From positions 1-64,000 of the forward strand of contig JAMPIU010000199.1 of assembly GCA_023667845.1 (NCBI GenBank): 64,000 nt of DNA, given 5' to 3'. The notes beneath the pieces were generated by a model. The model did not search any database, was not told where the DNA came from, and worked only from the letters and a program-made list of their open reading frames with translations. This document shows, in pieces, positions 22,605 to 46,403 of the stretch. The position numbers and the translations under genes were made by a program. The first letter of the stretch is position 1. Each line of letters opens with the position of its first letter. The stretch comes from Dehalobacter sp. Its GTDB lineage: Bacteria; Bacillota; Desulfitobacteriia; Desulfitobacteriales; Syntrophobotulaceae.

Positions 22605-22880
22605 GTGAATGAAAAGCTATTTTCTAATCCATCGATCTTACTAAGAGAAGAGTTCGACGATTGGGCTCTGCTTTATGATCCCGGGTCTGGGTATGCATTT
22701 GGGATAAACCCGATAGGGGCATTCATCTGGAAGAGATTGGACGGCCAACATACTATTGATGACCTTGTTGCAGAGGTTAATGCGTCTTTTACGGATGTTC
22801 CGTCTGATGTCAGAGATCGGGTATTAAAATTTGTAGATACATTAATTACCAAAGGACTTGCTGGAACTAAGGCTTCTTAG
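22605..22880 (+). CDS. scmD: PqqD-like RiPP recognition protein (SynChlorMet ScmD-like), left arm
   Basis: 91 residues, size and pattern of stand-alone PqqD proteins, which bind a precursor leader and bring it to a radical SAM enzyme. The core reads REEFDDWALLYDPGSG, FGINPIGAFIWKRLDG and IDDLVAEVNASF. It is strongly similar to the protein at 41977-42249 along its whole length. It starts at GTG 22605; GGGGGTAT upstream is conserved between the two genes although here it is about 16 nt from the start. Directly upstream of a radical SAM gene. The scm name is from memory of the cassette; the PqqD family call is firm. Confidence 0.82.
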   Translation: MNEKLFSNPSILLREEFDDWALLYDPGSGYAFGINPIGAFIWKRLDGQHTIDDLVAEVNASFTDVPSDVRDRVLKFVDTLITKGLAGTKAS

Positions 22881-22961: not shown

Positions 22962-24071
22962 ATGCATACCAAAGAAAATATAGTAAACATTGTAGGAGAT
23001 AATTATCCTCTAAAAACTGTTTATTTTTACCTGACGGAAGGCTGTAATTTAAGATGCTGTCATTGCTGGATAAAACCTAAGTACCAGACGGGTAGCCATA
23101 TATACCCATATCTCCCCTTGGATCTCTTTCACTCGATTATTAAGCAAGCTATACCAATAGGCCTTGTATCGGTTAAGCTCACGGGCGGCGAACCGCTTCT
23201 TCACCCCAATATTGATAAAATTTTAGAATTTATTCGTTTGAAAAATGTTAAACTAGGTGTAGAAACCAATGCGGTCCTTTGTACCCCCGAGATTGCCCGG
23301 CTAATGGCATCATGCAGAAATCCATCGGTGTCAGTAAGCCTTGATGGCGCAATTAAAGAAACGCATGAATGGGTTAGGGGGGTGGAAGGCTGTTTTAATA
23401 ATGCGATACAGGGCATTAAGAACCTGACAGACGCCGGGATAAAGCCGCACATTACCATGAGCATCATGAGACATAATAAAAACGAGATCGAGGATGTCGT
23501 CAGGCTTGCAGAATCGTTAGGGGCTTCATCGGTTAAATTTAACATTGTACAGCCCCTGGAAAGAGGGAAAGTAATGCATGAAAGGAACCAGGCTTTGACT
23601 ATCGAAGAATACATTAACCTGGGAGAATGGGTAGAACTTACATTAGCTAAATCGACAAAAATAAAACTTATCTATAGCCATCCAGTCGCGTTCAAGCCCC
23701 TCGGCAAGATGTTGTGCCGGAACGGGGATGGATGCCACGTGTGTGGCATCAAGGGAACAATAGGCGTCCTGGCCGATGGATCATACTCATTATGTGGTAT
23801 GGGGGAGAAAGTGCCAGAACTCGTACTCGGAAATGCGAGAGAGGGCCGTCTTGAAGACGTCTGGAAACACTCGCAGATCCTGGGTCAGGTCCGTGAAGGG
23901 ATACCGGATAGTTTAGAAGGCATATGTGGAGAATGCATAGTCAAGAGACTATGTGGCGGCGGATGCGTCGCTCAAAACTATTATCGTAATAAAAACCTGT
24001 GGGCGCCTTACTGGTACTGTGATGAAGCGTTAAAGGCCGGACTCTTTCCAAAAAGCAGGCGATTCCAGTAA
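22962..24071 (+). CDS. Radical SAM/SPASM maturase (ScmE/ScmF type), left arm
   Basis: 369 residues. The radical SAM cluster motif CxxxCxxC is C28-C32-C35 (CNLRCCHC), followed by KLTGGEPLLHP, GVETNAVLC and VSLDGAIKETHEWVRG. The C-terminal SPASM domain has many cysteines (CHVCGIKG, YSLCGMG, CGECIVKRLCGGGC) and ends YYRNKNLWAPYWYC. Expected to bind two or three 4Fe-4S clusters and to install a carbon-centred crosslink in a peptide. It closely matches the enzyme at 39745-40860, including the ends of both domains. It lies 81 bp after the PqqD gene and 60 bp before the small precursor. Confidence 0.88.
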   Translation: MHTKENIVNIVGDNYPLKTVYFYLTEGCNLRCCHCWIKPKYQTGSHIYPYLPLDLFHSIIKQAIPIGLVSVKLTGGEPLLHPNIDKILEFIRLKNVKLGVETNAVLCTPEIARLMASCRNPSVSVSLDGAIKETHEWVRGVEGCFNNAIQGIKNLTDAGIKPHITMSIMRHNKNEIEDVVRLAESLGASSVKFNIVQPLERGKVMHERNQALTIEEYINLGEWVELTLAKSTKIKLIYSHPVAFKPLGKMLCRNGDGCHVCGIKGTIGVLADGSYSLCGMGEKVPELVLGNAREGRLEDVWKHSQILGQVREGIPDSLEGICGECIVKRLCGGGCVAQNYYRNKNLWAPYWYCDEALKAGLFPKSRRFQ

Positions 24072-24131: not shown

Positions 24132-24239
24132 TTGGAGTATGAAGATCCAGTAATAATCGAGATGGATTCAGCCATCGGCGTGACTGCAATATGCACTTCT
24201 ATGGGCGGAACTGAGCCACCCATACGACCACTTGTATAA
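24132..24239 (+). CDS. Candidate RiPP precursor peptide, 35 residues, TTG start
   Basis: A short frame read directly: it starts at TTG 24132 after the ribosome site AAGGGGGT (about 8 nt away) and ends TAA at 24237-24239. The N-terminus, EYEDPVIIEMDSA, matches the leader of the two Cys-rich precursors at 38576 and 39150 (QYEAPKLIAMDEV): the same YE-x-P spacing, then hydrophobics, then MD. The rest, GVTAICTSMGGTEPPIRPLV, has a single Cys and would be the core. Placed directly after the PqqD and radical SAM genes, where a substrate is expected. The leader match and ribosome site make it credible; no core chemistry can be deduced. Confidence 0.68.
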   Translation: MEYEDPVIIEMDSAIGVTAICTSMGGTEPPIRPLV

Positions 24240-24564: not shown

Positions 24565-25764
24565 ATGAAAGGTATAATTAAAATATTGATAATAAGCTTA
24601 GTGATTGCAATATTGCTTGTACCATTATTAACTGTACCGTCAATGGCGGCAAAACCGGTAAAAAAGAATGTGCCAGTCATTTCTGTACAGTCCGTGCAGG
24701 CTTCAATTGCTGGATCGCCTGAACAGCGGTTCGATTTAGTCGCAGGCGGCGGAAGCTTGAATGGTGCCATGGACGTTGGAGATGTATACATAACGAGCGA
24801 TGGCACTAATATACATGTAAAATTCCAGATTACTGATTATAGGTTCTATCTGGCGACTACTCAGGTCAAAGTATCGATGGAAAGCCTGGCCGGTACAAGT
24901 TCTGCCCCAGGCCAGTTCCCTTATAAGTACCCGCATGGATATGTGAAGGAGTATGAATATGTTATTCCAATCCCGGCCGGCGCTAACAATGGCGATACAA
25001 TTTACATCGCTGCGCATGCAGATGCAGTGATTCCAGGGGCCGAAGAGTACATAGCAGGTAACGTATTACCAAGCCGGGCCGAGTTAAGCGTATGGCGTTC
25101 TTCAGACCCGTATTATCCTGTATATTTACTGGCAGGGATTCATGAATGGGTTGGGAGTGGAAGTGTATTAGATGGAACATATAATCCTCCTTTATACTAT
25201 GGTGCCTGGTGTATTGATGCAGACTCATTAATAAATACCTACCCGGCAAGATATTGGGCTAACGTTTACTCGAGCTATGACGTTGCGAATGTAGACCCTC
25301 TCGTCGAATACTATGAGAATATGGATCTGGTAAACTGGATCATCAACCAGCCTTCATTCGTCAACACGGATGCCACAGATAGCTCAGGTAGTTCTCTCGG
25401 GAAGTATACCTATGGTGATGTCCAGGTGGCAATCTGGATGTTACTCGATGATCAGCTCCCTGCTGACTTAAGAAGCGTACCGGGATACTCGATAGACAGA
25501 GCCAACAGAATTGTTGAACTTGCACAAGCTGGTGAGGGTTTCGTCCCTGTGGCAGGTCAAAAGCTCGCGGTCGTCCTTGATCCATACGACCCGGAGGGAC
25601 AGCCATGCATTATCTGGTTAACTCTGCCAAAAGGCCAGGATGAAACCGCCTGGGGTGCAGAGGCGACATGGGACCCTGTAACTGGTAAATGCACATCATT
25701 GAACTACCCATTCAATGCTGGTAAAACCGGAAACTGGGCTACATTCATGGAGTATACCCTGTAA
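24565..25764 (+). CDS. Secreted protein with thioester-domain (TED)-like segment
   Basis: 399 residues. An N-terminal signal peptide (hydrophobic residues about 5-27, cleavage likely after SMA-A) is followed by a beta-rich region and then a segment like the thioester domains of surface adhesins: YYGAWCIDADS with Cys216, VYSSYD, and YTYGDVQVAIWMLLDD with Gln287. In TED proteins such a Cys and Gln form an intramolecular thioester that reacts with host amines; here that is inference from motif spacing. No membrane anchor or sorting signal is visible at the C-terminus. It has its own promoter and a strong terminator, so it is a single-gene unit inside the left RiPP arm. Probably an exported or surface protein. 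Confidence 0.68.
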   Translation: MKGIIKILIISLVIAILLVPLLTVPSMAAKPVKKNVPVISVQSVQASIAGSPEQRFDLVAGGGSLNGAMDVGDVYITSDGTNIHVKFQITDYRFYLATTQVKVSMESLAGTSSAPGQFPYKYPHGYVKEYEYVIPIPAGANNGDTIYIAAHADAVIPGAEEYIAGNVLPSRAELSVWRSSDPYYPVYLLAGIHEWVGSGSVLDGTYNPPLYYGAWCIDADSLINTYPARYWANVYSSYDVANVDPLVEYYENMDLVNWIINQPSFVNTDATDSSGSSLGKYTYGDVQVAIWMLLDDQLPADLRSVPGYSIDRANRIVELAQAGEGFVPVAGQKLAVVLDPYDPEGQPCIIWLTLPKGQDETAWGAEATWDPVTGKCTSLNYPFNAGKTGNWATFMEYTL

Positions 25765-25843: not shown

Positions 25844-26740
25844 ATGAGAGAACACGACAGCGGGGAGTATTATTTACGCTTGTATAACGGCCACTGTTGG
25901 CGGCTTACTGCTCCTGGCGATGCTGCCCGCTGGTTAAAAAAAATGGCAAATATTATGCGTTTGGAGACGACCGGTCAGGTCGATTGCCACGGGCTATCTT
26001 TTATCGTGTGTGACCCGGACAATGCCGATTTCCGGGCATACATTCCCGGTGATCTCCCCAAAGAGAATTGGGCCGTTAGAAAATTGAGGCCTGTGCATTT
26101 ACTGTATCATAACGAGGCCCCCGATATAGTCTGTTGTATCGGTACGAAACTAAGCCGGTTCAGGGAATACGAGAGCATGGCCTGTTCTCTGGCACCAATA
26201 GTCGAACGGGTGATCCAGACAGGAGGAGCGCCATTCCACTCGGGACTGATCGTGCGAGATGGTTATGGCGTTTTACTGATGGGGCACCCTAAAATCGGTA
26301 AATCTACCTGCTGCAGGCGCGTGCCCGCACCCTGGGAAGCCTGGTGCGACGATAATACACTGTTGATAGGCGATGACGATGGTAACTATCACGCGCACCC
26401 GTTGCCTACTTTCGGCGATTTTGTCAATGGCAACGTCGATACGACATGGGACGTGAAGGCCCATATTCCCGTAAAAGCCATTTTTTTGTTGGAGCAATCC
26501 GGAGCAGATAAGGCAATACCGATCAATAGAGCTCCGGCGGCCTTATCGATATATCATTCGGCGTTAAGGGGTTGTATGAACATCGTTCGTGAACCAGATT
26601 ACCAGCCCCTCGCTGTTAACCGGGATATGATCTTTAAAAACATCTGCAGTATGGCACAAAAGACACCGGCTTTCAAGCTCCTTGTCTCTAAAGAGGGTAA
26701 GTTCTGGGAAGAGATAGAAAGAGTAATGCGAGGAATTTAA
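25844..26740 (+). CDS. scmC: HPr-kinase-like protein (SynChlorMet ScmC-like), copy 1
   Basis: 298 residues. An N-terminal region (YYLRLYNGHCWRL, then LKKMANIMRL) precedes a C-terminal HPrK/P-loop domain: PFHSGLIVRDGYGVLLMG followed by the Walker A GHPKIGKSTC at residues 147-156 and the WCDDNTLLIGDDDG segment. In RiPP clusters, HPr-kinase homologues such as the paeninodin kinase phosphorylate a Ser of the precursor, so a peptide-kinase role is possible; with one-Cys or multi-Cys cores this is not established. It is preceded by a terminator and its own TATA box, so it is probably expressed separately and leaderless. Similar to 26889-27779 and 37431-38372. Confidence 0.72.
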   Translation: MREHDSGEYYLRLYNGHCWRLTAPGDAARWLKKMANIMRLETTGQVDCHGLSFIVCDPDNADFRAYIPGDLPKENWAVRKLRPVHLLYHNEAPDIVCCIGTKLSRFREYESMACSLAPIVERVIQTGGAPFHSGLIVRDGYGVLLMGHPKIGKSTCCRRVPAPWEAWCDDNTLLIGDDDGNYHAHPLPTFGDFVNGNVDTTWDVKAHIPVKAIFLLEQSGADKAIPINRAPAALSIYHSALRGCMNIVREPDYQPLAVNRDMIFKNICSMAQKTPAFKLLVSKEGKFWEEIERVMRGI

Positions 26741-26888: not shown

Positions 26889-27779
26889 TTGGATAAAGAC
26901 GATCACTTCAACGGGTATAACATAAAACTATCGAGCGGCCAATGCTGGCAACTTTTTGCATCTGGCGAAGCGCAGCCCTGGCTGGAAGATCTTGCCCGAA
27001 TCATGGGGCTCGGGAAATCCCCGGGGAACTATTGCCAGAAGATAATTTTTACTCCCGATGATAACAGTGTTGAGCCCTTAATGCAAGAAGAATCACCTGC
27101 TATTAAATGGTCGTCTTTTTTTGAAGATGATAATTTTTCCTTACATAAAAACGATCGAACGGATGATATTTGGTGTAACATCGGACGTACTAAGAACAAT
27201 AAAAATAATTATCTTAAAATGTTCTATTCCCTCAGCCCTATCTATATTAAGATAATTAAAAGCGGAGGATTCCCGTTCCATACCGCGCTTGTGGAGCGCA
27301 ATGGAAAGGGCGCATTATTATCCGCGCCGGGCGGCACCGGTAAGTCTACCTGCTGCAGGCGAATACCCTCTCCATGGCGAGCCCTGTGCGATGATGAGGC
27401 ACTCATATGCAGACTCGACGATGGGCATTACGAAGCTCATCCGTTCCCTACGTGGAGCGATTATATGATGGACCGCGAAAAGAAGACGTGGAACGTACAG
27501 GAACATGTCGAAGTCAAGGCCGTCTTTTTCCTCAAGCAATCCCCGCAAGAACGGATCGAGCCCATTGTATCCGGAAAAGCTGCACTGTTGATGTATGATG
27601 CTGCGATTGCGGCCTGTAATCGAATATTTTCTTACCTGGATAAAGAAGAACAGCTGAAAATATTTAAAAAGGTCTTTAACAATGCCTTAGAGATGTCAAA
27701 AAAGGTACCAGCGTATGAGCTTAAAGTTTCTATTGATGGCAAATTTTGGGAATTGATAGATGCGTTGCCGACGGAATAA
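26889..27779 (+). CDS. scmC: HPr-kinase-like protein (ScmC-like), copy 2
   Basis: 296 residues, start TTG 26889: a stop codon lies directly before it in frame, and GGTGAT lies about 5 nt upstream. Same layout as copy 1: GYNIKLSSGQCWQLF at the N-terminus, then GGFPFHTALVERNGKGALL and the Walker A APGGTGKSTC at about 147-155, then LCDDEALICRLDDG. The two copies are separated by 148 bp with no gene and clearly arose by duplication, though they have diverged well beyond synonymous changes. In the 148 bp the only notable sequence is AAAAGGGGATG, which does not lead to a long frame. Confidence 0.72.
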   Translation: MDKDDHFNGYNIKLSSGQCWQLFASGEAQPWLEDLARIMGLGKSPGNYCQKIIFTPDDNSVEPLMQEESPAIKWSSFFEDDNFSLHKNDRTDDIWCNIGRTKNNKNNYLKMFYSLSPIYIKIIKSGGFPFHTALVERNGKGALLSAPGGTGKSTCCRRIPSPWRALCDDEALICRLDDGHYEAHPFPTWSDYMMDREKKTWNVQEHVEVKAVFFLKQSPQERIEPIVSGKAALLMYDAAIAACNRIFSYLDKEEQLKIFKKVFNNALEMSKKVPAYELKVSIDGKFWELIDALPTE

Positions 27780-27838: not shown

Positions 27839-28507
27839 TCATTTTTCTCTGCAACTGCTTGCTTCGGTAGGCGGTGCTTTGCAGGATAACCGGATTTTTT
27901 CCAGATATTCCTCGTCTATAAACAAGCGGTAAGGAGTTTTTATTATCCATCTGTCTGTAGACGGATGATATTGGCCAATGATCGTCCTGCCCATGATCAA
28001 CTGTAGCTCAACTCCTTCCGGGCGTTTGAACGATAAAACCTCAGGCTTCATGATTTTTGGTAAACAGGCCTTGATAATGCCCGATAGAGAGAATGCCCTG
28101 TTTATACGATAGATAAGACGTTTGGCATAATATAAAATGAAATTTACTACAAACAGTGTCCATGCAATCAATTGGCCGACAATACCATTGTAAATATGTA
28201 GCCGTCGGCCTCCTCGTCGGGCATATCCGACTTTGCCAATCACGTCCCCGGGATTGACCGTCCAGGTATCAATAAATATACTATTATCGCCGCGCGTCAT
28301 TATTCCTTGCGCGGTTATCGATGTCACCCTATGTATGACCTTTTGTGCGTTTTTCGGGGACGGAAAGACAATAATATCTCCGGGGCAGATATCTCGCGTG
28401 TTTGTTGAAATTGTGACGACATCGAGGGCCTGCAGGGTGGGGCTCATGCTATTGCCTACAACGACAATTGTCTTATCTTGAGGTGTATTTTCTATTGTAT
28501 CAATCAT
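27839..28507 (-). CDS. Signal peptidase I-like (S26) protein with conserved C-terminal extension
   Basis: 222 residues. The N-terminal S26 domain has the nucleophile segment VVGNSMSPTL (Ser20) and VIHRVTSI (His59) with TRGDN, so it is the archaeal/ER Ser-His type, not the bacterial Ser-Lys type. A membrane helix follows (about 107-125), then a C-terminal domain of about 75 residues: VLSFKRPEGVELQLIMG, IIGQY, RWIIKTPYRLFIDEEYL. The protein at 36694-37383 has the same extension. Expected to cut leaders or signal peptides on the outer face. It is the last gene of the minus-strand MoxR-DUF58 operon and converges on the kinase genes. Confidence 0.78.
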   Translation of the reverse strand: MIDTIENTPQDKTIVVVGNSMSPTLQALDVVTISTNTRDICPGDIIVFPSPKNAQKVIHRVTSITAQGIMTRGDNSIFIDTWTVNPGDVIGKVGYARRGGRRLHIYNGIVGQLIAWTLFVVNFILYYAKRLIYRINRAFSLSGIIKACLPKIMKPEVLSFKRPEGVELQLIMGRTIIGQYHPSTDRWIIKTPYRLFIDEEYLEKIRLSCKAPPTEASSCREK

Positions 28508-36693: not shown

Positions 36694-37383
36694 TTAATGA
36701 CTATCAACATTATTACCAATGTTTTGCGTCGTATAGTAATCCGGGTCTTGAGGCAGTGGTGGCAGCAACGATTCATCAACAAACAACAGGAACGGTTTCT
36801 TGATAATCCATTTTTTAGAGAAAGGAGTGCATATACCGATCATACGCTTTCCCATTAACAGCCTCATTTCGATACCATTTGGCTTGCTAAAAGTCATGAG
36901 CCGGGGTTTCCATGGCCCCGGGATCCATATCCTGAATATGCCCGATTTACTCAAAAATCGATAAATAAAAACAAACGGCGGACTGATCGGGACGAAAATC
37001 CTTTCCCGGGTAAAGAGTTTACACAGAATTTTAATATGGTGAACAAGTCCGATTAACTCTCCTGCCACCCCATTCTTTACTTTAATCAGCTTTTGGTTAC
37101 GCCGCGCAGATTCGACCTTACCAATGACATCAAAATCCTGTAAAACCCACGCATCGTTCTCCTTGCTATGATCGCCACGGGTGATTATTCCGTTTGAATT
37201 AATTGCTACTACCCGGTGCGCAACCTTTAAATTGCTAACTTTAGGCGAAATAAATACTATAATATCGCCACGCCGTACCTTCTGCCCGTTATAAGGCGTG
37301 ACTGTGATGACGTCGAGGCTCCTCAGCGTCGGATACATGCTTTCACCGACGATGACCACAGGCAATTGTTTCTCATTTTCCAT
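36694..37383 (-). CDS. Signal peptidase I-like (S26) protein with conserved C-terminal extension, right arm
   Basis: 229 residues. S26 nucleophile segment VIVGESMYPTL (Ser15) and KVAHRVVAI (His56), then TRGDHS, so again the Ser-His type. The C-terminal extension (MTFSKPNGIEMRLLMG, MIGIC, KWIIKKPFLLFVDESLL) matches that at 27839-28507 along its whole length, showing that the extension is a real domain. It lies 47 bp after the HPr-kinase-like gene of the right arm and is probably in the RiPP operon. A role in removing the precursor leader or in export is inference. Confidence 0.8.
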   Translation of the reverse strand: MENEKQLPVVIVGESMYPTLRSLDVITVTPYNGQKVRRGDIIVFISPKVSNLKVAHRVVAINSNGIITRGDHSKENDAWVLQDFDVIGKVESARRNQKLIKVKNGVAGELIGLVHHIKILCKLFTRERIFVPISPPFVFIYRFLSKSGIFRIWIPGPWKPRLMTFSKPNGIEMRLLMGKRMIGICTPFSKKWIIKKPFLLFVDESLLPPLPQDPDYYTTQNIGNNVDSH

Positions 37384-37430: not shown

Positions 37431-38372
37431 CTATTTATCCGAAAGGGCCTTTTCCATCTCTTCCCAGAACCGACCCGTCAGCGTGGCCTGCAACGTATAC
37501 GCGGGAACGCTTGCGGCAATATTACACGCATTATCCAGCAACTTTTTCCTGAAGGCTGCTGCCTCGGGCATGCTCATAAACAACCAGTACTTGCCCAACA
37601 ACTGAATCGATGACTGATAAATCAATAAAGCCGCCTTTCCTTTACCGACCGGGAACGCCCGATCTTTCTCGCCCCGCTCCAGGAAAAATATAGCGTGAAG
37701 GGGTATCTGTTGCTGTACATTGCTCGCCTCCTTCATCCCCAGCTCGTAATAGTTTTTCCAGGTGGGCATCGGATGCATGATATAGCGATCGCCCACTTTT
37801 ACGACCAGCGCCTCCTCGTCCGTCACTGCACGCCAGGGCTTTTCTATCCGGCGATAACAGGTCGATTTGCCCGTCCCCGATTCCGCGGCCAGCACAACGC
37901 CCTTTCCACCTAACTCCATCATAGCCGAGTGCATAATGATCCCACCGCGATCTATAACACGCTGGTAAATAGGATACAGTGTACCCACCATGTATTGAAA
38001 ATCAAGATATTCCAGGTTCTCGATATGGAGCTTCTCTTTATCATAATCCATTAGCTCACAGACCATATCCGGTATATCGGGATGATGCCATATCCTGACC
38101 GGATCCTGTCTGACCATTAGCCATCCGTCACGGGGGTAATCTTTAAACCGCGAGTATGACCGGGAATCGTTGACAATGTCGCCTTCAGCACCAAAGCACC
38201 TCTTGGCGACGATGATTTTTGTCGAGCCATTACCGTTATCGGCTTTCAGGCCAAATATGGATACCAATCGCTTAACAATCGGCTCTGAAGCCTCATCTTC
38301 ATGTATGATACACCATTGCTGGCCATCCGCAAGCGTTAAAGAGTATCCTTCCGGGCCAATGGTTTCGCTCAT
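37431..38372 (-). CDS. scmC: HPr-kinase-like protein (ScmC-like), right arm
   Basis: 313 residues from the ATG at 38372, chosen because AGGGACC lies about 8 nt upstream and because it aligns the N-terminus with the other two copies (GYSLTLADGQQWCII). The kinase-like part has GGIIMHSAMMELGGKGVVLA followed by the Walker A AESGTGKST at about 164-171 and VTDEEALVVKVGD. Third copy of the family in the window; its catalytic part is nearer the usual HPrK sequence. It lies 185 bp after the second precursor and just before an S26 gene. Confidence 0.74.
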   Translation of the reverse strand: MSETIGPEGYSLTLADGQQWCIIHEDEASEPIVKRLVSIFGLKADNGNGSTKIIVAKRCFGAEGDIVNDSRSYSRFKDYPRDGWLMVRQDPVRIWHHPDIPDMVCELMDYDKEKLHIENLEYLDFQYMVGTLYPIYQRVIDRGGIIMHSAMMELGGKGVVLAAESGTGKSTCYRRIEKPWRAVTDEEALVVKVGDRYIMHPMPTWKNYYELGMKEASNVQQQIPLHAIFFLERGEKDRAFPVGKGKAALLIYQSSIQLLGKYWLFMSMPEAAAFRKKLLDNACNIAASVPAYTLQATLTGRFWEEMEKALSDK

Positions 38373-38575
38373 AATAAGGTCCCTAATCATTTTATTATGG
38401 TTAATATGTAATGGATTTCTTTACATATAAATTAATTGTTAATGCCATATTGAATATTCAATACAGAGAAAATTACTATACTTAAATAAACATAATTCAG
38501 GTTGATAAAGCTAAATAATAAGCAGAAATAAGAATACAGTTATAGAAAAATTAAAAAATTGTTTTTGAGATTATT

Positions 38576-38761
38576 TTACTTAAGCTGGAAATCGAAGTTC
38601 CCGCTGTATTTCGTTAAAGCCTGGCAACCAAAGGCACATGTTCCTGCGGTTGCACAGTAACCGGAAGAACAGTTGCTGTCAGCGGCCCTGATGCCTTCCG
38701 CACATTCACTAGTGTGAACGACTTCGTCCATCGCTATGAGTTTCGGCGCTTCATATTGCAT
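38576..38761 (-). CDS. Cys-rich RiPP precursor candidate A
   Basis: 61 residues. Leader: MQYEAPKLIAMDEV, identical in 13 of 14 positions to precursor B. Core: five cysteines (20, 31, 36, 42, 46) with YCATAGTCAFGCQA near the C-terminus; precursor B shares YCAT, then GTC-x-FGCQA. The ATG follows GGAGATGATGATGA with a GGAG ribosome site about 10 nt away. Placed downstream of PqqD and two radical SAM/SPASM genes; thioether (sactipeptide/ranthipeptide-like) crosslinks are the natural expectation but not proven. Fits the small-protein ScmA position of the cassette as I remember it. Confidence 0.75.
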   Translation of the reverse strand: MQYEAPKLIAMDEVVHTSECAEGIRAADSNCSSGYCATAGTCAFGCQALTKYSGNFDFQLK

Positions 38762-39081
38762 TCATCATCATCTCCTATACGATATTCAATGCTTGCACAT
38801 ACCGCAGGAATTTTTTCCGTAATTCCTAAGATATATACCCCCCAATACAAGCAACATCACGGTCGGGAGAATCATTCCCCTCAAACGCATGTGACGAATG
38901 CCCATCATTATGGTACATATCCAAGACCCCATCGAATAGCCTCTTAAGAGACCATCAGACGAGATCTCGATTACTGTCCAAACGGTAATTATGCTTTAAT
39001 AATTCCTTTTAGGTTAAATAATTATCGGGTAAAAAAATAGATACAATTTCCCTATGCCGTTTAACAATATATAAAGCGTTA
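38762..39081. repeat. Tandem duplication unit 1: upstream region of precursor A
   Basis: Matches 39360-39676. The about 55 bp next to the gene are the same in both copies (CATCATCATCTCCTATACG and onward), then similarity drops to roughly three-quarters. The small frame seen in unit 2 is broken here by a TGA. A TATA-like box (minus strand TTTATATATT, 39066-39075) is kept. The duplication also covers the leader part of the precursor gene. The 388 bp 38762-39149 contain no intact gene. Confidence 0.7.
39066..39075 (-). promoter_or_regulatory. TATA-like box before precursor A
   Basis: Reads TTTATATATT on the minus strand; a start near 39040 would give a leader of about 280 nt before the precursor. 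The matching box in unit 2 is at 39661-39670. Confidence 0.35.
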
Positions 39082-39149
39082 GCATAGTAAATATTTATTA
39101 AATAATATAATGAAAAATTAAAAAACCGTGGGGACTTTTTAACCCGAAC

Positions 39150-39359
39150 TTAACGTTGACCTATGCTATTAGTCGGGCCGCTGATCTGGACCGTTGCCTG
39201 GCAGCCAAACCTGCAGGTACCAGTATTAGCAACGTAGCCAGTTGCACAATAATAGTCCTTCCCCCAGTTCGCGTCATAACCATTTGTACAGTTGTGACAG
39301 GTGGCAACAGGGTCGGATACCTCGTCCATTGCTACCAGTTTCGGCGCTTCATATTGCAT
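39150..39359 (-). CDS. Cys-rich RiPP precursor candidate B
   Basis: 69 residues. Same leader as precursor A (QYEAPKLVAMDEV) and the same C-terminal motif (YCATGYVANTGTCRFGCQA). Five cysteines (21, 24, 38, 49, 53). Between leader and motif the two precursors differ in length and sequence, as expected for variable core regions, and both end in unrelated tails. Same GGAG ribosome site. The gene lies 95 bp after a small frame (39454-39648) and just downstream of the radical SAM genes. Confidence 0.76.
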   Translation of the reverse strand: MQYEAPKLVAMDEVSDPVATCHNCTNGYDANWGKDYYCATGYVANTGTCRFGCQATVQISGPTNSIGQR

Positions 39360-39676
39360 TCATCATCATCTCCTATACGATATTCAATGCTTGCACATAC
39401 CGCAGGAATTTTTTGAGTAATTCCTAAGATAGTACCCCCCAATACAAGCAACATCACAGCCGAGACAATGATGCCCCAAACGCACGTGATGAACGCTCAT
39501 CATTATGGTACATATCCAAGAACTCATCCAACAGCCTCTCGAGAGACCGCCAGACAAGATCTCGATTACTGTCCATACGGTAATTGATATAATAGTCTCT
39601 TTTATCAGGATAAATAATTAACGCGCAAAGTTGAGATGGATTTTCCATTTGCCGTTTATCAGTATAAAAAGCGAAT
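39360..39676. repeat. Tandem duplication unit 2: upstream region of precursor B
   Basis: Partner of 38762-39081. Both copies keep the 55 bp before the gene, an inverted repeat around AGATCTCGATTACTGTCC and a TATA-like box (minus strand TTTTTATACT at 39661-39670). Conservation outside any intact frame suggests a leader RNA or regulatory region. Confidence 0.7.
39454..39648 (-). CDS. Small frame inside the repeat, doubtful gene
   Basis: 64 residues (MENPSQLCALIIYPDKRDYY at the start, SNRDLVWRSLERLLDEFLDM in the middle). It has no clear ribosome site, and its ATG lies slightly upstream of the transcript start implied by the TATA-like box at 39661-39670. The equivalent frame in unit 1 is interrupted by a TGA, though the C-terminal part stays similar in sequence. 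It may be a real short protein, a decayed one, or only conserved leader RNA. Confidence 0.25.
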   Translation of the reverse strand: MENPSQLCALIIYPDKRDYYINYRMDSNRDLVWRSLERLLDEFLDMYHNDERSSRAFGASLSRL

Positions 39677-39744: not shown

Positions 39745-40860
39745 TTAAGATGTGAATGATTTGAGGAGCCTGCTCGCCGGGAACAAACCCTTTTTCATGG
39801 CCTCGTCACAATACCAGTAAGGCGCCCACAAGCTCTTACTCCGGTAGTAGTTCTGGGCGATGCACCCGCCGAAGCACGTCTTTTTATTGATACATTCGCC
39901 GCAGACGCCTTCGAGGCGATCTGGTAAGCCCTTACGCAACTCACAGAGGAACGACGCATTTTCCCAGGCATCCTTGAGGCTGACATTCGCCGCGTTACCA
40001 CAGGTCAGCTCCGGAACATTTTCACCGATACCGCATAAAGCGTAAGTGCCGTCAGCGAGGACACCGATAATGCCGAGGATATTACATATCCCGCAACCAT
40101 ACGATCGACCTATCATATTGCCCAGGGAACGGAACGCGATCGGATGAGAATAATGCAGGGGAATACTCGACGATTTCGAGAGCGTGTGCTCTACCCAATG
40201 GCCTAGCTTAACGAAATCCTCAATGCCCATAGCTTCACCGGCCTCGTACAGCTGTTCGGCCCGTTCGGTGGGGACCACAACGTTGAACTTGACCGAGTTG
40301 GCACCGAGCGATTCTGCCAGCCGGACCATCGGTTCCATCTGGTCGCGGTTCTTCCGCATGACACTCATGATGATCTGGGGGCGAATTCCTACCGAGACAA
40401 GATTGCGAATGCCTGCCAGGGCATCTTCGAAACAGCCGTCTACCCCGCGCACCCATTCGTGGGTTTCCGCATCGACACCATCGAGGCTTATCGAGACATA
40501 AACGTTGCCACAGGCGGCAATAGCCCGGGCGACTTCCGGCGTGCACAGGACGCCATTCGTCTCAACACCTAACGATAGCCCCTCCTCGCGAATAAACGTG
40601 AGTATCTCAAGGATCCGGGGATGAAGCAAAGGTTCGCCGCCGGTCAATTTCACGTTAGAGAGGCCCAGCGGTTTCCCTTCCTTCACGATCTTTTTAAAGA
40701 GATCGACCGGTATATATGAGTTCGACACCGTGCTGGACTGGAACGCCGGGGCTATCCAGCAATGGCGGCAGCGGAGGTTGCAGTCTGCGGTGAGATAGAA
40801 GTATATCTGGTTTAAAGGATATTTCCTTTCTGCCTTTTCACATAAATCATCAGAAACCAT
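39745..40860 (-). CDS. Radical SAM/SPASM maturase (ScmE/ScmF type), right arm
   Basis: 371 residues. Cluster motif C27-C31-C34 (CNLRCRHC) after YFYLTADC, then KLTGGEPLLHP, GVETNGVLC and SLDGVDAETHEWVRG. The SPASM domain has GCGICNILGIIG, YALCGIG, CGECINKKTCFGGC and the ending YYRSKSLWAPYWYC. It is the counterpart of 22962-24071, with which it shares length and most motifs. Expected to bind several iron-sulfur clusters and to crosslink the Cys-rich precursor. GC-richer than its left-arm relative. Confidence 0.88.
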   Translation of the reverse strand: MVSDDLCEKAERKYPLNQIYFYLTADCNLRCRHCWIAPAFQSSTVSNSYIPVDLFKKIVKEGKPLGLSNVKLTGGEPLLHPRILEILTFIREEGLSLGVETNGVLCTPEVARAIAACGNVYVSISLDGVDAETHEWVRGVDGCFEDALAGIRNLVSVGIRPQIIMSVMRKNRDQMEPMVRLAESLGANSVKFNVVVPTERAEQLYEAGEAMGIEDFVKLGHWVEHTLSKSSSIPLHYSHPIAFRSLGNMIGRSYGCGICNILGIIGVLADGTYALCGIGENVPELTCGNAANVSLKDAWENASFLCELRKGLPDRLEGVCGECINKKTCFGGCIAQNYYRSKSLWAPYWYCDEAMKKGLFPASRLLKSFTS

Positions 40861-40874
40861 ATCATCACATCTTT

Positions 40875-41975
40875 TTATGTAGGAAGCTTTCCACCCTGCT
40901 GCAGGAACAGTCGCAAGCAGGCATCCATGCTCGGACTGTACATGTCACCTTGCACCGAATACGATAGCGCAGGACAGTTGCCCGTGCAATATTTCATATA
41001 TTTGCAGTCCCGGCAAAACTCAAAGTCACTCAGGGGAATCGAACGCCGGGCTCTCATTCGCTTAAGCTCGGGATGGTTTTGCCACACTTCTTTCAGATCA
41101 TCTTTGTTAATCCTGCCCAGCTCGATGTGACTGAGATAAGAGCAAGGTATAAGGACACCATCCGATCTTACCGCGAGATCTTTGAATATACAGCCACAGC
41201 CAATCAGGTAGCCTCCGGAGTGACTGCAAGCGGTCCCTTCTTTACTTGCCTTAACCATTTCCCGCCACATTCTGACTTCGGCCAGAGGCCCGGCCTGGGC
41301 GACGACACGCCCGGGATATTCGTTACTTAGCTTGAGGAGCGTCTCCATCGCGATCGTGCGGTCCTGGACACTCAGCTGAATCTGGTTGTTTTCCTGGCAC
41401 GTCCCCAGGTATGAAGCCGCATTTGTGGAGAAAGACGGTATTTTAATATCATCTAACAAAAACCGGGCGATTTTTTCCAGGTCATTGACATTATTTTTAT
41501 TTACAGTTACTCTAACAGTAGCCGGCACATTATTATTTATCAGACTTTTTAAGCCTCTGACCGCCTTCTGGAAACTGCCCTTCCCACGGCAGGCATCGTG
41601 ACCCGCCGCATCAAAGCTGTCGATGGACACCTGGACATAAGAGCAGCGGCCCGTTGAAGCCAGATATGCTGCCATGTCATCGGTAATTAAAGTGCCATTA
41701 CTCAATATGGAATATCTCATCCGGTTCTGGACGATGCCATCGATAATATCTTTAATATCTTTTCTTACGAAGACTTCTCCGCCCGTGAGGGTAAGGTCCA
41801 TTACTGCACATTTGTTCAACTCGCCGAAGAACTGGAGCCATTCCTCTTTCGGGAGATCTGCCGTCTCGCCCGGGCTGGAAAAATGAGAACAATACAGGCA
41901 TCTCAGATTGCAATTGCTGGTAATCTCGATAGTCAACGAACGGGGCGTTTTCATTACCGGCGGAACAGGCGCCAT
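40875..41975 (-). CDS. Second radical SAM/SPASM enzyme (ScmE/ScmF type), right arm
   Basis: 366 residues. Cluster motif C22-C26-C29 (CNLRCLYC) right at the start of the domain, then LTLTGGEVFVRKD and ILSNGTLITDDM, VQVSIDSFDAAGHD. The SPASM part has GCGCIFKDLAVRSDGVLIPCSYLS and FCRDCKYMKYCTGNCPALSY. It belongs to a different branch from the other two radical SAM proteins and has no counterpart in the left arm. It starts 1 bp after the PqqD stop, so translation is coupled. A GAGGT ribosome site precedes its ATG. Confidence 0.87.
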   Translation of the reverse strand: MAPVPPVMKTPRSLTIEITSNCNLRCLYCSHFSSPGETADLPKEEWLQFFGELNKCAVMDLTLTGGEVFVRKDIKDIIDGIVQNRMRYSILSNGTLITDDMAAYLASTGRCSYVQVSIDSFDAAGHDACRGKGSFQKAVRGLKSLINNNVPATVRVTVNKNNVNDLEKIARFLLDDIKIPSFSTNAASYLGTCQENNQIQLSVQDRTIAMETLLKLSNEYPGRVVAQAGPLAEVRMWREMVKASKEGTACSHSGGYLIGCGCIFKDLAVRSDGVLIPCSYLSHIELGRINKDDLKEVWQNHPELKRMRARRSIPLSDFEFCRDCKYMKYCTGNCPALSYSVQGDMYSPSMDACLRLFLQQGGKLPT

Positions 41976-41976
41976 A

Positions 41977-42249
41977 CTATACCTCAGATCCGGCTAAACC
42001 CTTCTTTTTGAGGTCTTGAACGAAACTTTCCACTTCACCCCTTGCCTGTTCGGGCAAGTCGTTACAGTTTTTACGCAACTCGTTAATGATATCTTCTATC
42101 GAATGCTTTCCATCCAGAAGTTTCCAGACGAAAACGCCCACTGGATTAATACCAAAAACCTGTCCGCTCCGGGGGTCATAAAGCAATGCCCAGTCGTCGA
42201 ACTCTTCTCTCAGTACCACCGCAGGGTTTATGATCGGTTTCTCTAACAT
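41977..42249 (-). CDS. scmD: PqqD-like RiPP recognition protein (ScmD-like), right arm
   Basis: 90 residues, strongly similar to 22605-22880 (REEFDDWALLYDPRSG, FGINPVGVFVWKLLDG). First gene of the right-arm operon; the ATG at 42249 is preceded by GGGGGTATCTGATAAA. PqqD homologues bind the leader peptide and deliver it to radical SAM partners, both of which are encoded directly downstream. The whole right arm reads PqqD, radical SAM, radical SAM, precursor, precursor, HPr-kinase-like, S26 peptidase. Confidence 0.84.
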   Translation of the reverse strand: MLEKPIINPAVVLREEFDDWALLYDPRSGQVFGINPVGVFVWKLLDGKHSIEDIINELRKNCNDLPEQARGEVESFVQDLKKKGLAGSEV

Positions 42250-42293: not shown

Positions 42294-42545
42294 GGTTATA
42301 TTTGGTTATTAATTTGGATATTAATTGATATTTATACAACTTAAAGGCCAACTTATTAATAAATAATAAATATATAGTAAATTTTAATTTGTAATTATAT
42401 TTTTAAAATTAGAGTTAAAATTTAAGTAGCAAGTTTATTAATTACTTAGAATAAATGAACGATAAACTTGAATATAAATCGTTACCTATTATTAACGCTG
42501 GCAATTCATTATCACATCCTATGCCTGACCATATCGAGGCTCCCT

Positions 42546-44465
42546 ATGAGTAAAAAAAACTTTAAGCGATTATTCATCGATACCATCAAACCGATCAATC
42601 ATTACTTTGATCTGGTGAAGGAATCCCTTAAACGTCCGGAGCCGAAAGAAAATAAGTTCAGAGCAAGGGACATTACCTTTTTCCTTCAGTTTTTCAAGCC
42701 AGTCTGGAAGATCGCGATCTTGAGCTTTGCTATGGCCATCCTGCTTTCTCTGATCAGGTCCGTCGTGCCCTTATGCTCAAAAATTTTTATCGACTTTGTC
42801 ATTTTAAAGCAAGCCTATAACCAGGTATATTCAATACTATCCTTCGCGGGGATGCAGTCGTTTACCCCCACGGTGGTCAATATACTGCAGACGGTCGAAT
42901 ACGTCATCCTTATCATGATCGCCGTCGGCATCATTTACGCTTTTTTTGAGGCAATCAGGAATTATATAACGATGCGATACGAGCAACAGCTCACGTACAA
43001 CCTGCAGCTCGGGCTGTTCGATCACGTCCTGAGGTTTCCTCTCTCGTACCTGAAAAGCAAGCAGACGGGCTACCTGGTATCGCGGATATCCAGCGACGTA
43101 TACGTCCTGCAATACCTGATGTCCAGTATGATCACTGGAACGATCTCAAACTTTTTCTTCATGCTCTTCAGCGTCCTGATCCTGATGGCCCTCAACGTCA
43201 ATATCGCCATTATCGTCGCCTGTACAGTCCCCGCTTATCTCGTCGTCAACTATTTCTTTTCCGGCCGGATCCGGGCGATCGGCTACATCGAGCAGGAGTC
43301 CTACGCCCAGGTCGGGAAGGACATGCAGGAGATCCTCTCCGGGGTCGAAGTGGTCAAGTCCCATACCACGGAAGACCGGGAAGTCGAGAAGGTCTCTAAC
43401 AGGCTGAAGACCCTGATGAACACCCGTATCAAGTCCATGATAGTCTCGTCGGCCTCGCGATCGATGACCCGGGCCATCCAGTACGGCGTGCTGATCATCG
43501 TGCTATGGTTCGGGGCCCACGAGGTCGAGCGGGGCAACATGACGGTCGGAGACTATGTCGCCTTCCTCTCATACATGTTGATGCTGTCGGGCTCAGTCAG
43601 CAACCTTTTCAACACCTACCTGATGATGCAGCCCGTGCTGTCGTCGCTCGACCGCCTGATGGAGCTGTTCAAGACGGATCCCGAGTACGAAAGGGACGAG
43701 CAAAAGCGGAAAGGGCTCAAGCCCGAGAAGCTGGCCGGGGATATCAGATATCGCGACGTCACGTTCTCCTACGAGGTCAACAAGCCGGTGCTGAGCAACG
43801 TCAGCTTTGACATAAAATCCGGGGAGGCCGTCGCACTGGTCGGCCTGAGCGGAGCCGGAAAGACTACACTGGTCAATTTGCTGCTCAAGTTCTACACGCC
43901 GCAAAACGGCGCCATCTACCTGGACAGTAGCGACCTGAAGGACCTCAACACGACCTGGCTCCGGAAACAGATCGGCATCGTGTCGCAGGACATCTTCCTC
44001 TTCGACGACACGATCGAGAACAATATAAAATATGGCAGGCCTACCGCCCGCAAGGAAGAGGTGATCGAAGCCGCGAAGATCGCCCATATCCACGACGAGA
44101 TCATGCAGCTCCCAGGCGGGTACGGCACCGTGGTCGGCGAGCGGGGCATCAAGCTCTCCACCGGCCAGCGGCAGCGCGTCTCGATCGCCCGGGCCTTCCT
44201 GAAAAACCCGCCGCTGCTCATCCTGGACGAGCCCACGTCCGCCCTCGACGTCGAGACGGAGAAACACCTGAAAGAATCGCTGAAGACGTTGATCAAGGGC
44301 ACGACGACGATCATCATCTCGCACCATATGATGCTCACCGATATCGCGGACAAGATACTGGTGATCAGCGAAGGCGGGATCGCCTATATGGGCACCCATG
44401 AAGAGCTTAAAAAGAAAGAAGGACTGTATCAACGATTGATCGCAACACCTGAAGAATCGGGCTGA
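42546..44465 (+). CDS. ABC exporter, fused membrane and ATPase domains
   Basis: 639 residues from the ATG at 42546, chosen for the GAGG ribosome site 6 nt upstream; longer frames start 78 bp earlier without one. Six membrane helices (about 40-330) precede the ATP-binding domain: Walker A GLSGAGKTT at about 432, Q-loop GIVSQDIFLFDDTI, the signature as LSTGQRQRVSIARA (Thr in place of the usual Gly in LSGGQ) and Walker B LLILDEPTSALD at about 556, then the H-loop IIISHHM. Type IV exporters of this kind export peptides or lipids. It starts divergently from the PqqD gene and is the likely transporter of the mature RiPP. No peptidase (C39) domain is fused. Confidence 0.86.
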   Translation: MSKKNFKRLFIDTIKPINHYFDLVKESLKRPEPKENKFRARDITFFLQFFKPVWKIAILSFAMAILLSLIRSVVPLCSKIFIDFVILKQAYNQVYSILSFAGMQSFTPTVVNILQTVEYVILIMIAVGIIYAFFEAIRNYITMRYEQQLTYNLQLGLFDHVLRFPLSYLKSKQTGYLVSRISSDVYVLQYLMSSMITGTISNFFFMLFSVLILMALNVNIAIIVACTVPAYLVVNYFFSGRIRAIGYIEQESYAQVGKDMQEILSGVEVVKSHTTEDREVEKVSNRLKTLMNTRIKSMIVSSASRSMTRAIQYGVLIIVLWFGAHEVERGNMTVGDYVAFLSYMLMLSGSVSNLFNTYLMMQPVLSSLDRLMELFKTDPEYERDEQKRKGLKPEKLAGDIRYRDVTFSYEVNKPVLSNVSFDIKSGEAVALVGLSGAGKTTLVNLLLKFYTPQNGAIYLDSSDLKDLNTTWLRKQIGIVSQDIFLFDDTIENNIKYGRPTARKEEVIEAAKIAHIHDEIMQLPGGYGTVVGERGIKLSTGQRQRVSIARAFLKNPPLLILDEPTSALDVETEKHLKESLKTLIKGTTTIIISHHMMLTDIADKILVISEGGIAYMGTHEELKKKEGLYQRLIATPEESG

Positions 44466-44920: not shown

Positions 44921-46159
44921 TTATTTATGCGTTAACCAGTAAACCCAGTGCCGGAAATACGAAACGAGAAGTGGCCATCGTTTTAATTCGGGATATCGTT
45001 TTCTCATGAACTCTGAAGAAGGAAATGCATGCTTTAACATACGGCTAACGATGCTGCCATTTTTCCCGTCTCCGGATAATGCTAACCGGAATCCGCTTAT
45101 CGGATTGCGCGTCTTCTGATAGGCGTAAAAATGAGTCTCCCTCTTCAAAGCCTTCGGCCACCTGGAGAAATCGTCGACATCTTCAGGTATCCGCAGATCG
45201 GTCCAGAGCCTGGCCATCTGAATTGACTTTTCCAGCGCGACCCTCGACAGGTTTTCCACGCTGAGCTTTTTTGCTAACTCCCAATCACGAGGCGACTCGA
45301 GGTGCTCGCAGAGCAGGGCAATGTCAAGAATCCATATAAGCCGGAGCCCTTTATCGTGCTGGTATATCAGATGCGAAGCGGCGAAGCATAGCGCATCGGC
45401 CGGGTGCATCGTCTTAAACGAGACGTCGGCCATTTTAACCGTGATGGCCCGTTCAAAGACCGGTTTCATGTCCGCCTGCTCGTTCATCATGCTGAACGGC
45501 TGATAGTTCCAGTGGAGCTCGATACAGGGCCCGCTGCGGGAATCGCCCGGGATGAACGCTTCCTGGTTGATCCTTTTTTCTTCCAGCGAGCAGGCAATCG
45601 TCTCCGAATACAAGTAGCCAAGGCCCTTTAATACCTCGCAGGACCGGGGCACGTCTTCCGGATAGACCAGCAGGTCAATATCACTATATGGCCTCACGCC
45701 AGGATTGTTGTATAAATATACGGCGAATGCAGGACCTTTTAGCAATAGTACATCGATGCCCTCCTTCTTAAAAGCCGACATGACGTTTTTCACGACCTTT
45801 TCGACCACGACCGATTTACTAGCGGTCTGGAGGTAATTTCTCCTCATACTACCCATAGCTTCAGGCGGAGGGAGCATCAAGGGAGTCGGCCGGGCTGTCA
45901 GCTGCTTATAGAAATACGGCAAAATCCCGTGAATATCGAGGAAATATAGCAGGTCCTTCCATTCATCGGCCGAGAGCGTCGGGAGCTTTACCGGCTCTTT
46001 TCTCAAGACCGAAAGAATAAACAGCAGCTTGTCACCGGTGATATCGACAGTATCGCTTGAAACGGCGCACAGCACATTATCGGCATGCAAAACATTTACA
46101 TCATCAATTAACCTCAAATCCGAGGGATCGTGGTAATTGGAATTAACGGAGATTTCCAT
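44921..46159 (-). CDS. NTP_transf_5-type nucleotidyltransferase of RiPP clusters
   Basis: About 412 residues from the ATG at 46159; a GTG four codons upstream (46171) is the other choice, but GGTGG is placed better for the ATG. The family motif is clear: VLLLKGPAFAVYLYNNPG and RPYSDIDLLVYPEDV (the Asp-x-Asp of a nucleotidyltransferase at about 185), then ALCFAASHLIYQH. NTP_transf_5 proteins repeatedly occur in lasso-peptide and other PqqD-linked clusters; their reaction is not established. Its place next to the ABC exporter fits a RiPP role. Convergent with the exporter. Confidence 0.74.
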   Translation of the reverse strand: MEISVNSNYHDPSDLRLIDDVNVLHADNVLCAVSSDTVDITGDKLLFILSVLRKEPVKLPTLSADEWKDLLYFLDIHGILPYFYKQLTARPTPLMLPPPEAMGSMRRNYLQTASKSVVVEKVVKNVMSAFKKEGIDVLLLKGPAFAVYLYNNPGVRPYSDIDLLVYPEDVPRSCEVLKGLGYLYSETIACSLEEKRINQEAFIPGDSRSGPCIELHWNYQPFSMMNEQADMKPVFERAITVKMADVSFKTMHPADALCFAASHLIYQHDKGLRLIWILDIALLCEHLESPRDWELAKKLSVENLSRVALEKSIQMARLWTDLRIPEDVDDFSRWPKALKRETHFYAYQKTRNPISGFRLALSGDGKNGSIVSRMLKHAFPSSEFMRKRYPELKRWPLLVSYFRHWVYWLTHK

Positions 46160-46403
46160 TTTGCATGCCACCCGGGCGCACTGAGTTACCGGAATAATCA
46201 GATTGCGCTACATCTATTTGTAATTAGTTATTGATATATTTTCATTGTTCTGTTTCCATTGTATAATATTATCAATTAGCCAATTGCCATTACAGGTGTC
46301 ATTTATTTCTGCTTAATTACTATAGCTAATAACGTTAAATACTATAAACGATTTATATAAGGAAGCTATAAATAGCATCGCTAGCGACCTTCGGGATGAA
46401 TTT

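Follow-up and report, generated by a model that had tools for sequence, protein, structure and literature searches.

What do two small cysteine-rich reading frames, lying one behind the other on the (-) strand, encode, and what might the enzymes beside them do to their products? We addressed this question in a 64,000-base stretch of DNA (the window), which comprises bases 1-64000 of contig C199 (72,205 bases). Precursor 1 (38576..38761, (-) strand) has 61 amino acids and precursor 2 (39150..39359, (-) strand) has 69, with five Cys each, at positions 20, 31, 36, 42 and 46 in the former and 21, 24, 38, 49 and 53 in the latter. Both open with MQYEAPKL[I/V]AMDEV, which holds the leader motif YEAPKL, and the near-identity of the leaders reported by the first-pass annotation was borne out, MQYEAPKLIAMDEV and MQYEAPKLVAMDEV agreeing at 13/14 positions. 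The cores contain CAEG, CSSG and CAFG in precursor 1, and CTNG, CATG and CRFG in precursor 2. YCAT is found in both precursors, as had been noted, and so is GTC-x-FGCQA (GTCAFGCQA and GTCRFGCQA); the latter had been placed at the C-terminal end of the proteins, a position that it does not occupy, for a variable tail of 13-14 residues comes after it. Alignment of the codons of YCAT and GTC-x-FGCQA showed several synonymous differences between the copies and a protein change only at x, which suggests that selection at the protein level maintains these residues. Gly stands three residues after 6/10 Cys of the two precursors, against 1.1 expected from shuffles (P = 7.5e-5), and the other 4/10 Cys have no Gly at that place. 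The CxFG within GTC-x-FGCQA is itself one C-x-x-G unit.

The neighbouring genes give these ORFs a context. On the (-) strand lie two SPASM radical SAM enzymes, ScmF (39745..40860; TIGR04251, 554 bits, cut-off 400) and ScmE (40875..41975; TIGR04250, 556 bits, cut-off 400), together with ScmD, a PqqD-like RiPP recognition element (RRE) (41977..42249; TIGR04248, 130 bits, cut-off 100), and ScmC, an HprK-like kinase with similarity to HPr kinase (37431..38390; TIGR04249, 255 bits, cut-off 125). The same strand carries an archaeal-type, SEC11-like S26 signal peptidase, the probable leader peptidase (36694..37383; TIGR02228, 64.7 bits, cut-off 51.85), and an NTP_transf_5 protein that may be a tailoring enzyme (44921..46171; PF14907, 142.8 bits). 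Family models also identified an MsbA-like ABC exporter, lacking a peptidase domain, on the (+) strand (42468..44465), and polysaccharide genes (wecB, rmlA, rmlD and others) surround the whole. ScmC, ScmD, ScmE and ScmF all exceed the curated NCBIfam cut-offs for SynChlorMet (SCM), a name derived from Syntrophobacter, Chlorobium and Methanocella. Judged by these four enzyme models, the locus is a complete SCM cassette, whose precursors are ScmA-like but fall outside the ScmA model.

Several cluster and catalytic residues of these enzymes are conserved. In full-length alignments, the CxxxCxxC and seven SPASM Cys of ScmF are invariant in 17 homologues, and the radical SAM and SPASM cluster Cys of ScmE in 20. 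Ser15, His56 and Asp71/77 of the S26 peptidase are invariant among the homologues aligned, as are the HprK His and P-loop of ScmC, in which the acidic pair of the kinase is DE.

We then built a search profile from 18 bacterial SCM precursors, with no window sequence in it, and searched the 633 ORFs of the window. Precursor 1 ranked first (E = 7.7e-7) and precursor 2 second (E = 3.9e-5), and both were still at the top with a profile of the cores only (E = 2.9e-4 and 7.5e-4). As a control we took 323 kb of other sequence with 3292 small ORFs; the best E among them with the relatives' profile was 1.7, and 0/3292 combined a YxxP leader with three C-x-x-G. Together with the two adjoining SPASM radical SAM maturases and the PqqD-type recognition protein, these rankings uphold the earlier reading of the ORFs as RiPP precursors with a leader and a diversified core. 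The NCBIfam model of the SCM precursor ScmA, TIGR04252 (cut-off 35 bits), matched neither window precursor at E up to 10; among the relatives, the precursor of L058 matches it at 69 bits, and the other matching precursors score from 8 bits upward, below the cut-off.

The relatives also indicate which part of the core is conserved. Bacterial genomes whose titles name, among others, Candidatus Aminicenantes, Deltaproteobacteria and Candidatus Aerophobetes encode homologues of ScmE with 56-64% identity, and further relatives were taken from the order and phylum around two initial genomes with ScmE homologues. Beside the SCM cassettes of these bacterial relatives we collected 18 precursor ORFs. 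The gene order ScmD-ScmE-ScmF-precursor-ScmC-S26-NTP-transferase-ABC is seen again in L012, and other genomes show portions of it. All 18 precursors have [YW]-x-x-P in the leader, and the first Cys follows that Y/W at a distance of 17-22 residues in all but one relative (32). Their cores are made up of C-x-x-G units at a spacing of mostly 10-11 residues, with Gly at +3 of 88/101 Cys (0.87), a frequency that is somewhat flattering because the relatives were picked partly by these patterns; at other positions around Cys, Gly, Ser/Thr and Ala all stay below 0.5. The suggestion of FGCQA as a fixed site of crosslinking is not supported: the motif is absent from 18/18 of these precursors and is ruled out as a family motif (0/18), and C-x-x-G is conserved there instead. 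As far as the sequences compared indicate, the conserved target across the family is a repeated Cys-x-x-Gly unit, accompanied by a YxxP leader. Two diverged cassettes, L063 and L064, have ScmE only ~42-43% identical and a further ScmD-like domain close to ScmE/ScmF, and their precursors mix C-x-x-G and C-x-x-x-G.

How the leader might be recognised is suggested by ScmD, which by structure prediction has an RRE fold. Its predicted structure (mean pLDDT 90.6) matches the lasso RRE-leader complexes of TbiB1 and TfuB1. The best match of the ScmD family profile is PDB 9x8z (E = 2e-9), the complex of LppB with the LppA leader from the linear polyphosphorylated peptides (LPP), whose gene set and roles were described in 2026 (PMC13381572). 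With an inferred residue offset of 18, the Asn of LppB that contacts the leader Pro, N33, appears to correspond to N35 of ScmD, which is conserved in 16/18, and under the same offset the Tyr-contacting Asp of LppB is not conserved in ScmD homologues.

Taking these findings together, we consider it fairly probable that both ORFs are ScmA-type RiPP precursors of the SynChlorMet cassette and are processed as follows. ScmD would bind the YxxPxL leader motif and present the peptide. ScmE and ScmF would then take the alpha hydrogen from a Gly at +3 of a Cys and form a C-alpha thioether, giving an unnested chain of four-residue (C-x-x-G) rings with 2 Da lost for each. In streptosactin (GggA/GggB) unnested alpha-thioethers link Cys31 with Gly34 and Cys25 with Ser28 (PMC8172795), and repeated four-residue Cys-Gly rings are predicted here because its Cys-Gly(+3) thioether has the same spacing; thioether crosslinking of the window precursors is plausible. 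The HprK-like ScmC may phosphorylate a Ser or a Thr, giving a phosphate that the NTP-transferase may extend, as PsmN does in pseudomycoidin (PMC9266682). From the spacing in LPP and lasso leaders, the S26 peptidase would be expected to cut off the leader a little ahead of the first Cys, at about residues 18-20, and the ABC exporter would release the product. The SCM pathway thus outlined looks like the LPP pathway plus two radical SAM enzymes. More tentatively, and as a possibility that we rate below even chances, SCM products may form a hybrid class, in which an unnested chain of four-residue Cys-Gly alpha-thioethers also bears phosphate and perhaps other decoration, made on an LPP chassis in several phyla, the cores diversifying more quickly than the surrounding DNA.

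The chemistry assigned to ScmE and ScmF is where another explanation carries most weight. These enzymes might instead make beta- or gamma-carbon crosslinks, carbon-carbon bonds or epimers, with the Cys serving in disulfides or metal binding. SPASM enzymes as a group have a wide range of reactions (reviewed in PMC8326336), and ScmE has similarity also to PapB, WgkB, NirJ-type and heme enzymes. Both proteins score well under the cut-offs of characterised maturase families, and they are not members of StsB, for example (cut-off 625 bits; ScmE ~108 and ScmF ~87), so the bond type is not derivable from homology. However, no other pattern in the precursors comes close in strength to Gly at +3 of Cys, and a beta-thioether cannot take Gly as its acceptor because Gly has no beta carbon. 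We therefore regard a change of this other kind as unlikely, if worth keeping in mind, and retain C-alpha thioethers as the preferred reading.

It is very unlikely that the peptide is essentially an LPP-like phosphopeptide, with ScmE and ScmF acting elsewhere or on few residues. The gene set minus ScmE/ScmF does equal the LPP core set, but all of the precursor-bearing SCM loci examined keep at least one of ScmE/ScmF nearby, and SCM cores have Cys repeats, which are not mentioned in the description of the LPP leader and core.

The history of the two copies can be read from the DNA around them. The upstream region of precursor 1 (38762..39063, (-) strand) folds well as RNA and is 84% identical to that of precursor 2 (39360..39660, (-) strand), the second copy of the duplicated unit. 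Over ~300 bp the upstream DNA of the two precursors is 84-86% identical (211/246 over 250 bp in a side-by-side alignment), and the 14 leader codons are identical at 37/42 bases, so that the identity of the leaders is weaker evidence of selection, the upstream DNA being about equally conserved. The first six codons and ~80 bases 5' of the start codon are unchanged between the copies, and in the remainder of the ORF after the leader 69/133 bases are identical (52%), with 34 gap positions. This comparison indicates that the promoter region and the leader are a duplicated unit, tandem and recent, or have been homogenised by recombination, and that the cores have diverged. In our scheme the precursors would have arisen by tandem duplication of the promoter region plus leader, with divergence of the cores since then. 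We detected no convincing further copy of the precursor or its upstream region elsewhere in the assembly. That both ORFs are decaying duplicates, no longer functional as precursors and sharing a leader through recent duplication only, is highly improbable: the similarity of upstream DNA and leader, the drift of the cores and the failure of the curated TIGR04252 to find either ORF would fit it, but the frames are open, the maturases intact, the differences inside YCAT and GTC-x-FGCQA synonymous, and the core-only profile finds both ORFs.

The upstream regions also showed unusually strong RNA folding (38762-39040 and 39360-39640, (-) strand; z = -4.0 and -3.8). In the structure that they share, about ten pairs differ between the copies on one side, a single pair differs on both, and none is broken; with two copies only, this covariation is no more than suggestive of a conserved RNA structure upstream of the precursors. 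A search for known RNA elements in Rfam gave no match at the gathering score.

A second SCM module, without ScmE, lies on the (+) strand about 10-15 kb from the first. It contains ScmD2 (22605..22880, (+); TIGR04248, 121 bits) and ScmF2 (22962..24071, (+); TIGR04251, 556 bits), directly followed by a possible precursor of 35 residues with a single Cys (24132..24239, (+); rank 3/633 ORFs, E = 0.034), whose leader is MEYEDPVIIEMD (YEDPVI). With a profile of the leaders only, this ORF and the two precursors rank first to third, without significance. Further along are ScmC2 (25844..26740, (+); TIGR04249, 246 bits), ScmC3 (26889..27779, (+); TIGR04249, 296 bits) and a second S26 peptidase (27839..28507, (-)), 40% identical to the first and with the catalytic residues kept. 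The interval from the small precursor to the ScmC genes contains 24565-25764 (+), which encodes a secreted-looking protein of 399 residues with no Pfam or NCBIfam match. The acidic pair of the kinase, Asp-Glu in the first ScmC (37431-38390), is Asp-Asp in ScmC2, ScmC3 and most relatives. In L012 there is likewise an extra ScmD-ScmF pair, then a precursor of its own, and no second ScmE.

The host of the cassette is uncertain, as the composition of the contig is unlike that of the rest of the assembly. The genes on the other contigs include those of a spore-former. Tetranucleotide distances between the window and these contigs are 0.21-0.42, versus 0.04-0.28 among the contigs themselves; Shine-Dalgarno-like sites precede 16% of long ORFs in the window versus 45% in the other contigs, and the fraction of Ile encoded by ATA is 0.32 versus 0.17. 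From these measures, contig C199 is probably mis-binned. An archaeal (methanogen) host that acquired the genes from bacteria was considered and set aside: mcrA is absent from the assembly, spore genes are on the other contigs and the composition of C199 stands apart, and a mis-binned contig is the likelier account. DUF1616 was rejected as proof of archaeal origin, being present also in a complete genome of the assembly's own family. Samples of the phylum and of the class to which the assembly belongs lack the SCM cassette, and since mis-binning is likelier we do not use this absence as evidence of transfer.

SCM cassettes are already named in NCBIfam. In the literature searched, we found no paper on SynChlorMet by name, none on ScmE/ScmF together with radical SAM in the SCM sense, and nothing relevant on Methanocella RiPPs. 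The comparison made here makes a specific and inexpensive test out of what was only a list of genes, as it yields one leader motif, one RRE, one repeated unit (C-x-x-G) and, by analogy with LPP, a likely peptidase and kinase. If the proposal is true, radical SAM thioether peptides would be linked to the line of phosphorylated lasso peptides and LPP, and a single leader-recognition chassis would carry quite different core chemistry.

How the window cassette stands among known systems can now be stated. It resembles SynChlorMet/ScmA in that ScmC, ScmD, ScmE and ScmF score above cut-off and the relatives' precursors match TIGR04252. It differs in that its own precursors lie outside that model, with C-x-x-G units that are fewer and irregular and an extra Cys after the last, and in the second, ScmE-less module close by.

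With LPP the cassette shares a discrete RRE, an HprK-like kinase, an archaeal-type signal peptidase, an NTP-transferase and an MsbA-like exporter, a gene-set match made by family models, with direct comparison to an LPP protein for LppB only. A YxxP leader, a variable core and a polysaccharide gene region are also common to both. The LPP peptidase LppS uses S29, H68 and D93 and needs its RRE for cutting (PMC13381572), and Ser15, His56 and Asp71/77 of the S26 peptidase are in line with these residues. LppN, the proposed counterpart of the NTP-transferase, had no activity when tested, and its deletion changed nothing in the LPP test system. Unlike LPP, the window cassette includes a pair of radical SAM enzymes, and its precursor cores carry Cys-x-x-Gly; the term radical SAM is not in the main text of the LPP paper, whose authors describe LPP as restricted to Bacillota (PMC13381572). 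The longer LPP leader consensus, YxxPxVLxHQxIxFETxxS, is missing from the window precursors, which have only its YxxPx[L/V] part, and so they are not filed as LPP.

The phosphorylated lasso peptides paeninodin, pseudomycoidin and BsfA likewise have a YxxPxL-type leader, a discrete RRE, an HprK-like kinase and a nucleotidyltransferase (PMC9266682, PMC10368454). The window cassette has radical SAM enzymes instead of the cyclase and B2; neither a lasso cyclase nor a B2 leader peptidase was among the cassette proteins scanned, and the ORF lists show no further candidate gene between them. With sactipeptides, in which Cys sulfur is joined to a C-alpha by a thioether, the window precursors agree in the C-x-x-G spacing only. 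Streptosactin differs in having one maturase and a different leader and protease, and it shares with the window cassette a SPASM radical SAM enzyme and the three-residue spacing, from Cys to acceptor there and from Cys to Gly in C-x-x-G here.
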